A stretch of DNA of 64,000 nucleotides from Natrialba sp. SSL1 (GTDB taxonomy: Archaea > Halobacteriota > Halobacteria > Halobacteriales > Natrialbaceae), in assembly GCF_001861355.1 (NCBI RefSeq), contig NZ_MASN01000030.1:372001-436000 (forward strand), given 5' to 3'. Both the position numbers and the translations under genes were made by a program. Below are positions 6,825 through 45,169 of the stretch, piece after piece (the first letter of the stretch is position 1; each line of letters starts with the position of its first letter). The notes beneath the pieces are model-generated. The model worked only from the letters and a program-made list of their open reading frames with translations. It was not told where the DNA came from and made no database searches.

Positions 6825-7013
6825 GGGTGCGAGAATCAAGCTACCTGAAGACGGTCCCACTCGCTACATTTGTGGGCCACGTCTTCCGTTGTTCGAGTCT
6901 CCGAGGATGCCGTCGGCTCACGAGTTTGTTCATCGGATCAGCTTGCTGCGCCGAGTAGTTGCTCACTCCGTTCGCGACAACGCCGAAGAACGACCGGGTG
7001 CGAGAATCGAACC
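6825..7013 (-). repeat. two truncated copies of the tRNA-His 3' end
   Basis: Bases 6994-7013 repeat exactly the 20 bases at 7107-7126 inside tRNA-His (part of the T arm plus the acceptor 3' strand, same orientation). A shorter 13-base copy is at 6825-6837. Both lie downstream of the tRNA 3' end. The rest of 6754-7104 has no gene. Between tRNA and first copy are 93 bases ending (plus strand) in 'gtcagaaag', closely like the spacer at tRNA-Pro. They could be integration-site scars or a conserved trailer structure. Confidence 0.75.
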
Positions 7014-7104
7014 ACGCCGAGACGTGCTCGCTGGCGCTGCGCGCGACTCGTCTGGTTCGATCTCGGTCGGACTTTCGACTCCTCCATGAAGTCGTCGTCA
7101 GAAA

Positions 7105-23828: not shown

Positions 23829-23890
23829 AAGCTGACGACGGATCGACTCGAGTGTAGCGAGAGAGCCCCAATTCCGAAGAAGTGTTGGAC

Positions 23891-23910
23891 GCCGAAGCCA
23901 GGAGTCGAAC
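23891..23910 (-). repeat. truncated copy of the tRNA-Asn 3' end (att-like repeat)
   Basis: These 20 bases match tRNA-Asn positions 24611-24630 at 19 of 20 positions, in the same orientation, and lie 700 bases downstream of the tRNA 3' end. The interval between the two copies holds one gene, a PD-(D/E)XK nuclease at 24065. The arrangement is that of a small element inserted at a tRNA 3' end with a duplicated target. No integrase gene is present. Bases 23829-24064 otherwise carry no gene. Confidence 0.7.
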
Positions 23911-24064
23911 AGGTGCGAGGCGGTCGGCCTCACTGTGTTCGGCCGCATGCGACTCGCGTGTTCGAGTCTGCTTGTTTCGCTGTTTTTCTTGGGTTTTGCT
24001 CGGAGCTATCGCTCCTCGCAGGTAACGATTCGAAAAACAGCGACACTGGAACGCTCTGCCGGAA

Positions 24065-24526
24065 TTATGGCCTGAGTACTGCGAGTTGTTTGTCGAAGAG
24101 ATACTCTTTTGCCCAGTTGATCCCGGCGCGTTGTCCGTTCACTGGGTCTCGAAACCGAATTTCCATTTTCCCAGTTGCAGCCTCCGAGACGGGTACGAGA
24201 TACCGATTATCGTTGAGTGGGTCGTAGACCGCAAAGTACTCCGCACGACCATCGTACCCAGTCCGATCGTATCCGTCCCCTCGGCGGCGTGTGCTCACCG
24301 TCTCAAACGCGACTGTGCCCTCGCTCTTCTGATACGCTGTTTTGCACTGAATTCGGTGGAACTGACCGGCGATTTCGACAACGAGATCGTACGGTTCGTT
24401 GTCGTAGGCTGGAACGAGAACGGGAATGTCGCGGATTACGAACGCAGAACGGATGATCGCCTCGGTTGCTTGACCGCGCTTTTGCGGTTCTTTGAGTGAC
24501 TCATACCATGTCGTTCGATCAGACAT
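24065..24526 (-). CDS. PD-(D/E)XK endonuclease, PDDEXK_5 / I-Ssp6803I-like
   Basis: A 153-residue stand-alone nuclease-fold protein. Candidate active-site residues are E22, D47 (in PYDLVVE) and the Q60-x-K62 pair (IQCKTAY), the D-(x)n-(E/Q)xK arrangement of this superfamily. The layout resembles PDDEXK_5, the family of the group I intron enzyme I-Ssp6803I; this is from memory. The gene is bracketed by the tRNA-Asn 3' end and its truncated copy, which suggests a mobile or homing-type unit. A palindrome covers its start codon. No methylase or antitoxin accompanies it. Confidence 0.72.
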   Translation of the reverse strand: MSDRTTWYESLKEPQKRGQATEAIIRSAFVIRDIPVLVPAYDNEPYDLVVEIAGQFHRIQCKTAYQKSEGTVAFETVSTRRRGDGYDRTGYDGRAEYFAVYDPLNDNRYLVPVSEAATGKMEIRFRDPVNGQRAGINWAKEYLFDKQLAVLRP

Positions 24527-24609: not shown

Positions 24610-24715
24610 CGCCGAAGCCAGGACTCGAACCTGGGACAACCTCGTATCTGCGGCGGACAGGCAGTACCTGAGTCGCCGTAACAGCGAGGTGCTCTACCAT
24701 CTGAGCTACTTCGGC
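24610..24715 (-). tRNA. tRNA-Asn (GTT) with a 33-nt intron
   Basis: The minus strand folds as tRNA-Asn: acceptor GCCGAAG/CTTCGGC, T arm CCAGGTTCGAGTCCTGG and anticodon loop CTGTTAA after splicing. The intron is 24646-24678, between positions 37 and 38, the canonical archaeal site. The exon-intron junctions form a standard bulge-helix-bulge: 3-nt bulges TA|C and AT|A, a 4-bp helix CTGT/GCAG between them, and the intron closed by CGGCG/CGCCG. Mature length is 73 including discriminator G. The CCA-adding enzyme gene lies 97 bases away on the other strand. Confidence 0.93.
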
Positions 24716-29879: not shown

Positions 29880-30132
29880 CTCACTTATCACGGACGCTTC
29901 GTATTGCTCAGCGCCCGCTTTTGCGTTCGGTCCTGACGTGCCCAACGCTCGCTACCGCTCGCGTTGGACTCCGTCAGGACGCTTTTCCGAACACAACAAC
30001 GACGAGCGGAGCGAGTCGTCCGTGTTCGGGAAACGGACCCGGAGAATTTGAGCAGACGAGTTGCAGCCCGAAACGGCGCTTTGCGCCGCACGCTCGGAAC
30101 ACCTTAGCGAGTTTGAAGGTCTGTCAGGACGC
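29880..30132 (+). repeat. tRNA-Arg trailer with two truncated 3' copies and hairpins
   Basis: ctccgtcaggacgct at 29867-29881 (tRNA end) recurs exactly at 29969-29983; gtcaggacgc recurs at 30123-30132. The first spacer holds an inverted repeat CCAACGC...GCGTTGG ending right before the first copy. The second holds nested inverted repeats CGAACAC...GTGTTCG and GACGA...TCGTC. A cttttcc run follows the first copy. No gene is supported from 29880 to 30417. Confidence 0.7.
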
Positions 30133-30833: not shown

Positions 30834-31393
30834 GGTGAGAGGAGTAAGCCCCCTTCTGTTCATCCCGGCATTCGGCTGAGCGTCCACGCCGTCACGGCAA
30901 AGCCGTGGGCGTTCGGGCTACCACGGCGTGGACTTGCACCGGTGAGGGTTCGCCGTTCCATCGATCCTCGGCCGTCTCTGTGTGATCGATCGTGACGAGC
31001 ACGATCCACGGTTTCGAACCGTGAACGCGGACCACACACCGCTCGGCGGCTCGCGCGCCAGAGGCGCTTTGAGTCGCCTTCCCTCTGCGGGTTGACTCCC
31101 CTTCCTCTCGGTCGGGTTCGCACGCATCATCGGTCGGGCCGAGACGTGTCGTTTCTGTTCCAGAGCCAGCGGTCTCCCGCTCCGGACTTGCGTCCGGTCA
31201 CCTGCCCGAACAGGTGGGGGGACTTTCCTCGCGAGCGTTGCGCGACTCGGGGAGTCGGGCAACGTTAAGAGCGTTGGGCAACCCGGAGGGGTGGCCAACG
31301 GTAAGAGCGCGGGCTACCCCGAGGGGGTAGTCCGCGTTGTACAGCCATCCCGTTGCCAGGATCGCCGCCGCGGCAGCCAGGCTCTCTCTCCAT
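30834..31393 (-). ncRNA. rnpB: RNase P RNA (archaeal type A)
   Basis: Catalytic RNA of tRNA 5' maturation. CR-I GAGGAAAGTCCCCCC is at 31216-31230 and CR-V ACAGAAGGGGGCTTAC at 30844-30859, the two strands of P4; an AACAGAAAC (CR-IV-like) lies between. The ends pair imperfectly as P1 (GGAGAGAGAG at 31382-31391 with CTCCTCTCACC at 30834-30844), which sets the approximate limits. At about 560 nt it is longer than the roughly 400-440 nt I expect for haloarchaea; three tandem hairpins at 31237-31335 explain part of the excess. End positions are approximate. Confidence 0.92.
31237..31335 (-). repeat. three tandem 27-nt hairpins with exact 36-nt period inside RNase P RNA
   Basis: Hairpins at 31237-31263, 31273-31299 and 31309-31335, separated by nine-base linkers GCTCTTAAC and GCTCTTACC (RNA sense). 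Each has a 5-bp outer and 5-bp inner stem with a 3-base loop. Stem sequences differ but pairing is mostly kept (for example GTTGC/GCAAC, GTTGG/CCAAC, GCGG/CCGC), which is covariation. The block lies just 5' of CR-I, where the P3 element is expected. Confidence 0.8.
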
Positions 31394-44975: not shown

Positions 44976-44998
44976 ATGGGATCGCCCGGATTTGAACC
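44976..44998 (-). repeat. truncated copy of the tRNA-Pro 3' end
   Basis: These 23 bases repeat 45096-45118 (T-arm half, acceptor 3' strand and two trailer bases) exactly, same orientation, 97 bases downstream of the tRNA. A run ATTTTT on the minus strand follows immediately (44971-44975), as an archaeal terminator would. The spacer holds two perfect hairpins: CTGTCGC...GCGACAG and TGCGC-GAA-GCGCA. Confidence 0.85.
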
Positions 44999-45096
44999 AC
45001 GCCCGAGAACCTGCGCTTCGCGCAGAACCTCGGTCTACTCCAAACCCAGACTCGTTCCATTTGCTGTCGCTCACGAAATTGTTCGCGACAGAAAGA

Positions 45097-45169
45097 TGGG
45101 ATCGCCCGGATTTGAACCGGGGTCACGGGCACCCAAGGCCCGAAGTATACCAGGCTAACCCACGATCCC
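45097..45169 (-). tRNA. tRNA-Pro (TGG)
   Basis: Minus-strand cloverleaf: acceptor GGGATCG/CGATCCC, anticodon stem CGGGC/GCCCG with loop CTTGGGT (anticodon TGG), T arm CCCGGTTCAAATCCGGG, discriminator A at 45097, CCA not encoded. No intron. One truncated 3' copy follows at 44976. Confidence 0.95.

Follow-up and report, generated by a model that had tools for sequence, protein, structure and literature searches.

Short structured modules behind haloarchaeal tRNA genes: a probable family of non-autonomous insertion elements directed to the T-loop motif

This study examined a stretch of 64,000 nucleotides of Natrialba sp. SSL1 (the window; genome G000), in which the tRNA-Pro gene is followed by a short structured module ending in a copy of the tRNA 3' tail. 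The sequence immediately preceding a module of this kind is of the T-loop type (GGTTCRAANCC) and belongs in nearly all cases to the T arm of a tRNA, in some to the end of a protein gene. The 17-25 bp from the T-loop motif onward are present at both sides of the module, and an inverted, imperfect copy of this target lies inside it, between a first hairpin (hairpin 1) and an inner hairpin. Each module is probably a copy of a short, gene-less, structured and non-autonomous haloarchaeal insertion element, which has the T-loop motif as its target and duplicates approximately 17-25 bp.

At the tRNA-Pro locus (Table 1), the exact 23-bp tail copy at 44976-44998 that a sequence-only reading of the window had described was recovered, and it consists of 22 tail bases plus one following base that gene and copy share. 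With up to 3 mismatches allowed, the tRNA-Pro tail has only two matches in the 64 kb, the gene and the copy, with 0 expected. The 97-base spacer does contain the two hairpins noted earlier (CTGTCGC/GCGACAG and CTGCGC/GCGCAG), and additionally holds an inverted imperfect copy of the tail that had been overlooked; its inner hairpin recurs near letter for letter in a tRNA-Val module of the same genome. The previously remarked likeness between the junctions before the tail copies of tRNA-Pro (CTCGGGCGTGGTTC) and tRNA-His (CTCGGCGTGGTTC) was also seen. The ATTTTT immediately beyond the tail copy is present as stated, but its interpretation as a terminator of the copy did not hold: the sister species G003, which has no module at this site, carries TATTTTTGCCGC directly after tRNA-Pro, and the T-run is therefore the original downstream flank of the gene, the ordinary flank of the empty site.

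Table 1. Features of the tRNA-Pro locus and of the other tRNA loci in the window.
Feature	Position	Strand	Basis
tRNA-Pro(TGG), host gene	45097..45169	-	ARAGORN; Rfam RF00005
Target sequence T, the tRNA-Pro 3' tail GGTTCAAATCCGGGCGATCCCA	45097-45118	-	
Hairpin 1, CTGTCGC-GAACAATTTCGTGA-GCGACAG, with opposed GA/GA mismatches under the apical loop	45064..45091	-	fold; helix 1 covariation, 80 distinct modules
Anti-tail TGGAACGAGTCTGGGTTTGGA, imperfect reverse complement of the tRNA-Pro tail	45039..45059	-	tRNA specificity by permutation; helices 2-3
Inner hairpin, CCGAG..CTGCGC GAA GCGCAG..CTCGG	45003..45033	-	fold; helix 4 covaries
Tail copy, identical to the final 22 bases of tRNA-Pro	44977..44998	-	repeat search; empty orthologue in G003
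tRNA-His, first module including tail copy	6994..7104	-	
tRNA-His, second module, in tandem	6825..6993	-	
tRNA-Arg(GCG), first unit, partial tail copy	29880..29981	+	
tRNA-Arg(GCG), second module, degenerate tail	29982..30131	+	fold
tRNA-Asn (24610-24715, with an intron), module displaced by an intervening ORF; tail copy at 23890-23910	23890..24040	-	
153-aa PD-(D/E)XK endonuclease (PF11645), between tRNA-Asn and its module	24065..24526	-	

The claim that all four tRNAs of the window carry a tail copy was likewise substantiated, the tRNA-Asn copy having 1 mismatch and being displaced by approximately 0.7 kb by the 153-aa ORF. This ORF is a neighbor lying outside the module, and its family, PF11645, is presumably the I-Ssp6803I homing family. 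The endonuclease occurs in 28 of 61 haloarchaeal genomes and in most of these stands beside tRNA-Asp or tRNA-Asn (loci L280-L304, L308 and L309); the tRNA-Asn genes next to it mostly bear an intron, and the tRNA-Asn of G003 has neither intron, nor ORF, nor module. This pattern resembles intron homing in an archaeal tRNA, driven by an endonuclease whose gene lies beside that of the tRNA. At one further locus (L296, around 1433-1959), ARAGORN calls a tRNA-Lys(TTT) with a 451-nt intron that overlaps the PDDEXK_5 ORF. An archaeal RNase P RNA was also located in the window at 30836-31268 on the minus strand, approximately 0.7 kb past the tRNA-Arg module array.

In a module read in the direction of the tRNA, the tRNA end is followed by a short T-rich stretch and then by hairpin 1, the anti-tail, the inner hairpin, a connector and the tail copy. 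Hairpin 1 has a stem of 7-8 bp with opposed GA/GA mismatches and a small loop; the anti-tail comprises 20-odd bases that are an imperfect reverse complement of the tail of its own tRNA and pair with the tail copy; GA/GA mismatches are frequently present again in the inner hairpin; and the connector is short (e.g., GCGTG or CCGTG). The two ends of a module are unlike each other (left, YTTTYTG..; right, ..CGTG) and form no terminal inverted repeats, the sole inverted repeat being that of the internal anti-tail and the tail. Most modules are 77-200 nt long, too short for an integrase gene, and no ORFs were found within them. Tail copies start at the GG/GTTC of the T loop and reach the last base of the tRNA in 82 of the 116 modules of three genomes. 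Up to four units can stand in tandem, with a single tail between neighboring units. No module of the window or of 14 further loci matched Rfam at the gathering score.

The structure was evaluated on 80 distinct modules from other genomes, none of which had been used in building the model. Pairing was retained in 89% of cells, and the covariation score of 0.472 compares with 0.178 +/- 0.008 for shuffled and 0.067-0.100 for slid partners; the alignment was fitted to the model and is biased toward the structure, and the margin is very large. As an indicator of which strand carries the selected structure, G.U was compared with A.C in hairpin 1: G.U pairs are in excess by 40 to 18 on the model-fitted alignment but by only 26 to 19 on an unfitted set, and a role for the RNA is possible. 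Beyond the universal T-loop letters, the anti-tail is specific to its own tRNA (3.71 vs. 2.84 +/- 0.18 when permuted, about 5 SD, 83 modules). Inner hairpins have been swapped between tRNAs with the exchange borders in T-loop sequences, and hairpin 1 and the anti-tail stay with the tRNA. Jumps between tRNAs appear to be rare, since the best match of a module is mostly that at the same tRNA of a sister genome (63 of 112). A separate kind of change was seen in the tRNA-Met array (G000:C43:32840-32953 and beyond vs. G002:C1:2562753), in which hairpin 1 keeps its stem but has its loop in opposite orientation from one species to the other; one of the two tRNA-Asn modules of G002 also has an inverted hairpin-1 loop, and such inversions are recurrent.

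Across the genome of the window, the flanks of all 47 tRNAs were examined and the seven on two small contigs were left out of the counts. At least one own-tail copy in a chain directly downstream was found for 23 of the 40 remaining, chromosomal tRNAs, and at least 26 have a module once degraded or displaced cases are counted. In the sister genomes modules stand behind 26 of 43 and 28 of 45 tRNAs, giving 116 modules over all three genomes. An own-tail score of at least 16 within 1 kb downstream was reached by 21 of the 40 tRNAs, compared with 0.13 expected from the tails of other tRNAs, and upstream by 1 of 40; the contrary expectation, that most tRNAs lack copies and share no structure, therefore fails. 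The seven tRNAs set aside (G000:C56:544-3353 and C59:5662-5813), several with odd D arms, have no modules and are probably virus- or plasmid-borne.

A covariance model detected modules in 57 of 61 haloarchaeal genomes from many families, with a maximum of 51 per genome; among the module-poor relatives are G045 (0) and G046 (1). In a phylum-wide sample, modules were found in 22 haloarchaeal genomes, and a single marginal match (E 0.009) fell outside the order. A strict 34-position pattern for one inner hairpin matched 55 copies in named genomes; the many genera represented include Natrialba, Natrinema, Natronorubrum, Natronococcus, Halobellus, Halorubrum, Haloferax, Halosimplex and Natronomonas. 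At least 46 of these copies lie just 3' of a same-strand tRNA, for 14 amino acids and each with the tail and anti-tail of that tRNA; several others follow displaced tRNA tails where larger insertions have their far end. With a 31-nt inner-hairpin pattern, few genomic copies were obtained, nearly all at modules. Combined, the common architecture and hairpins, the covariation, the tRNA-specific tails and this distribution uphold the earlier suggestion of a family of tRNA-tail modules rather than unrelated scars.

Comparison of 38 orthologous tRNA loci among three congeneric species showed that 16 are occupied in all, 8 in none and 14 differ in presence, with copy number differing at 27. Base-exact empty sites were obtained at five loci (Pro, 120 nt; Ala, 130; Arg, 102; Leu, 111; and Gln, 201 in two units), where the first base after the tRNA aligns to the first base after the last tail of the occupied species; the empty orthologue of the tRNA-Pro module is that of G003, and a similar empty site at the Tyr locus (122 nt) was judged by eye. 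Because presence and copy number vary among sister species and the empty sites are precise, the modules are not conserved appendages of tRNAs. One tRNA-Ala module (L059, G000:C43:1946-2072) lies approximately 13 kb from its tRNA (G000:C43:15141-15212), and the flank CTGCGATTCTGTAACGTC occurs after the tRNA and again behind the displaced tail, which suggests the entry of a larger element between the two. Downstream of tRNA-Leu, G002 (C1:1182421) and G003 (C13:34749) share a tandem-like 265-bp unit that is absent in G000 and contains, besides a tail copy, additional partial sequence of the tRNA-Leu body; it is either a larger relative or a tail duplication of another kind.

Gain by insertion is best supported at a protein gene. 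In Natronorubrum texcoconense, a protein gene with the end CGGTTCGAACCGGTCTGA has three tandem modules immediately after its stop codon, and one module stands behind a paralogue of this gene. These modules copy the gene-end sequence GGTTCGAACCGGTCTGA, which contains the T-loop-like GGTTCGAACCGG, and their anti-tails contain CCGGTTCGAA, the most degenerate one excepted. The target is thus a T-loop-like sequence and not a tRNA, because modules sit behind a protein gene with an end of the GGTTCGAACCGG type. Of 91 genomes of the family, 89 have the gene end itself; about four of the loci read have a module (G010; G023, in tandem; G089, with one; G026, with a remnant), and in the other loci the gene end runs straight into other sequence. 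The duplicated length at this site is variable, approximately 15-25 bp, so that a fixed stagger is not proven. The evidence for gain is direct at the protein-gene site only; the empty sites at tRNAs could also be losses through recombination between 22-bp repeats.

We envisage insertion as a staggered attack at a distance set by the T-loop motif, which would duplicate the target and leave the tRNA intact; the duplicate would end at the tRNA end because the distance from the T loop to the 3' end is constant (21-22 nt). The inverted copy may be made during insertion through fold-back copying of the target around hairpin 1, the inner hairpin then being copied or exchanged via T-loop microhomology, and modules may be lost when the two direct target copies recombine with each other. 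The tRNA would serve as a safe harbor and not as a working partner, and the mobilizing machinery would act in trans. A bolder version is possible and offered tentatively, namely a minimal mobile element that takes direct and inverted copies of approximately 20 bp of target at each insertion and has its long hairpin rebuilt from the target, with host-borne functions or fold-back copying in place of reverse transcriptase, Y1 transposase or Cas1 and the T loop as a universal landing signal.

Four candidate machineries were considered, and none can be the general mover because each is missing from many carriers. Reverse transcriptase (RVT_1, PF00078) occurs in only 2 of 61 haloarchaeal genomes, one of them the genome of the window (domain at G000:C37:35495-35929). 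No Y1 transposase (PF01797) is present in G058, G051, G028 or G060, which have 37, 31, 29 and 28 modules, respectively. Cas1 (PF01867) is found in 20 of 61 genomes, being absent from G000, G002 and G010 and occurring twice in the module-free G045. PDDEXK_5 (PF11645) is lacking in 33 of 61 genomes, including the two richest in modules (G027 and G017).

An alternative that we regard as unlikely is that the modules are miniature attachment-site elements of tyrosine recombinases, with the T-loop quasi-palindrome as the core site and small circles integrating and excising at T, alone or helped by resident integrases. Archaeal integrases classically target the 3' ends and T stem-loops of tRNAs, and enzymes of this kind are active in haloarchaea (PMC8371274), and tail copies act as or coincide with the far ends of larger integrated elements (L217, L233, L239 and L245, and the 13-kb displaced L059). 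The arrangement of T, inverted T* and T would moreover permit deletion and inversion, and an inverted hairpin-1 loop exists at tRNA-Met. Exchange at a short core would, however, give a new tRNA the tail of the donor and cannot alone yield tRNA-specific tails and anti-tails at many tRNAs; no integrase gene lies in the modules; and with the queries used, no module was found on PLSDB plasmids (blastn sensitivity) or in IMG/VR (type-I pattern), while phages gave tRNA matches only.

It is quite improbable that no dedicated mobility is involved and that the modules arise and are reshaped by slippage during replication and by template switching at the quasi-palindromic T loop, with microhomology to other modules. 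The order T, hairpin, T*, hairpin, T is the product expected of two fold-back copying events, inner hairpins are exchanged exactly between T-loop sequences, and no correlated enzyme emerged among reverse transcriptase, Y1 transposase, Cas1 and PDDEXK_5; haloarchaea are also polyploid with efficient gene conversion (PMC11276520). Chance template switching would nevertheless not preserve two specific hairpins with conserved GA/GA and strong covariation across many families, and the modules are confined to one order. That the module is instead a functional trailer, a structured small RNA co-transcribed with the tRNA to provide a decoy 3' end or a processing or termination element, is very improbable, as its agreement with the strong covariation, the invariable orientation downstream of tRNAs and the long persistence at given tRNAs (all three species have a module at 16 of 38 loci) is set against the polymorphism within the genus (14 of 38 loci), the modules after a protein gene, the relatives with none or few (G045 and G046) and the engagement of the tail copy in the anti-tail helix. 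The decoy RNA with a tRNA-like 3' end proposed in the sequence-only reading found no support in the variation between sister species, the precise empty sites or the protein-gene modules, and the copied tail pairs with the anti-tail without a rebuilt T arm.

Should the reading as an insertion element be true, one unrecognized, order-wide family of mobile elements adjoins over half of the tRNA genes of these haloarchaeal genomes, and it would explain many of the partial haloarchaeal tRNA copies now ascribed to lost proviruses. The family would also provide a clean case of an insertion element with a hairpin rebuilt from its target, and a genetically tractable system for finding an unknown insertion or template-switch mechanism. 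The results additionally warn against labeling such tails integration scars or tRNA-derived decoys.

Among the systems already described, MITEs and other non-autonomous transposons that duplicate their target site resemble the modules in being short, gene-less and repeated, with flanking direct repeats; the modules too show a target duplication with a precise empty site. They differ in having an internal inverted copy of the target in place of terminal inverted repeats of their own, in a long duplication that begins at a fixed T-loop motif, and in that no partner transposase was found among PF01797, PF00078, PF01867 and PF11645. Casposons and Cas1-type integration share with the modules the insertion beside a tRNA 3' end that leaves the gene intact and duplicates the target, and direct target repeats at tRNA 3' ends are what the modules show; casposon target duplications measure 1-27 nt with a median of 15 (PMC4046053). 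CRISPR arrays are alike in their succession of repeat, unit and repeat. Casposons, however, carry cas1, polB and terminal inverted repeats, whereas the modules are gene-less and two thirds of the genomes have no Cas1. Lacking terminal inverted repeats and cas1, the modules are neither MITEs nor casposons.

The attachment-site duplications left by the integrases of proviruses and islands at tRNAs likewise place a copy of the tRNA 3' end downstream, and a direct repeat of the 3' part of the tRNA is present in the modules. In contrast to such scars, the copies flanking a module stand approximately 100-150 nt apart and enclose conserved hairpins and an anti-tail, and modules occur at most tRNAs at once and also at a non-tRNA site; neither an integrase gene, cargo nor the remnant of a larger element lies between the module repeats, the ORF at tRNA-Asn encoding a PDDEXK endonuclease. 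Palindromic elements derived from IS200/IS605 (PATEs, REP) are similarly short, non-autonomous and built of structured hairpins. They insert without target duplication, and the Y1 transposase is absent from many module-carrying genomes. Proviruses and sporadic partial tRNAs have been reported in haloarchaea (PMC3119063, PMC9897764), the sporadic tRNA gene fragments of archaeal genomes being partial genes left by larger integrations, and no hairpin family is treated there (PMC9897764). A published description of the module family was not found in the open-licence literature, which is weak evidence of novelty. Short non-autonomous insertion elements are a known kind and the target-derived hairpin is not, and the haloarchaeal modules probably represent an undescribed family of insertion elements.
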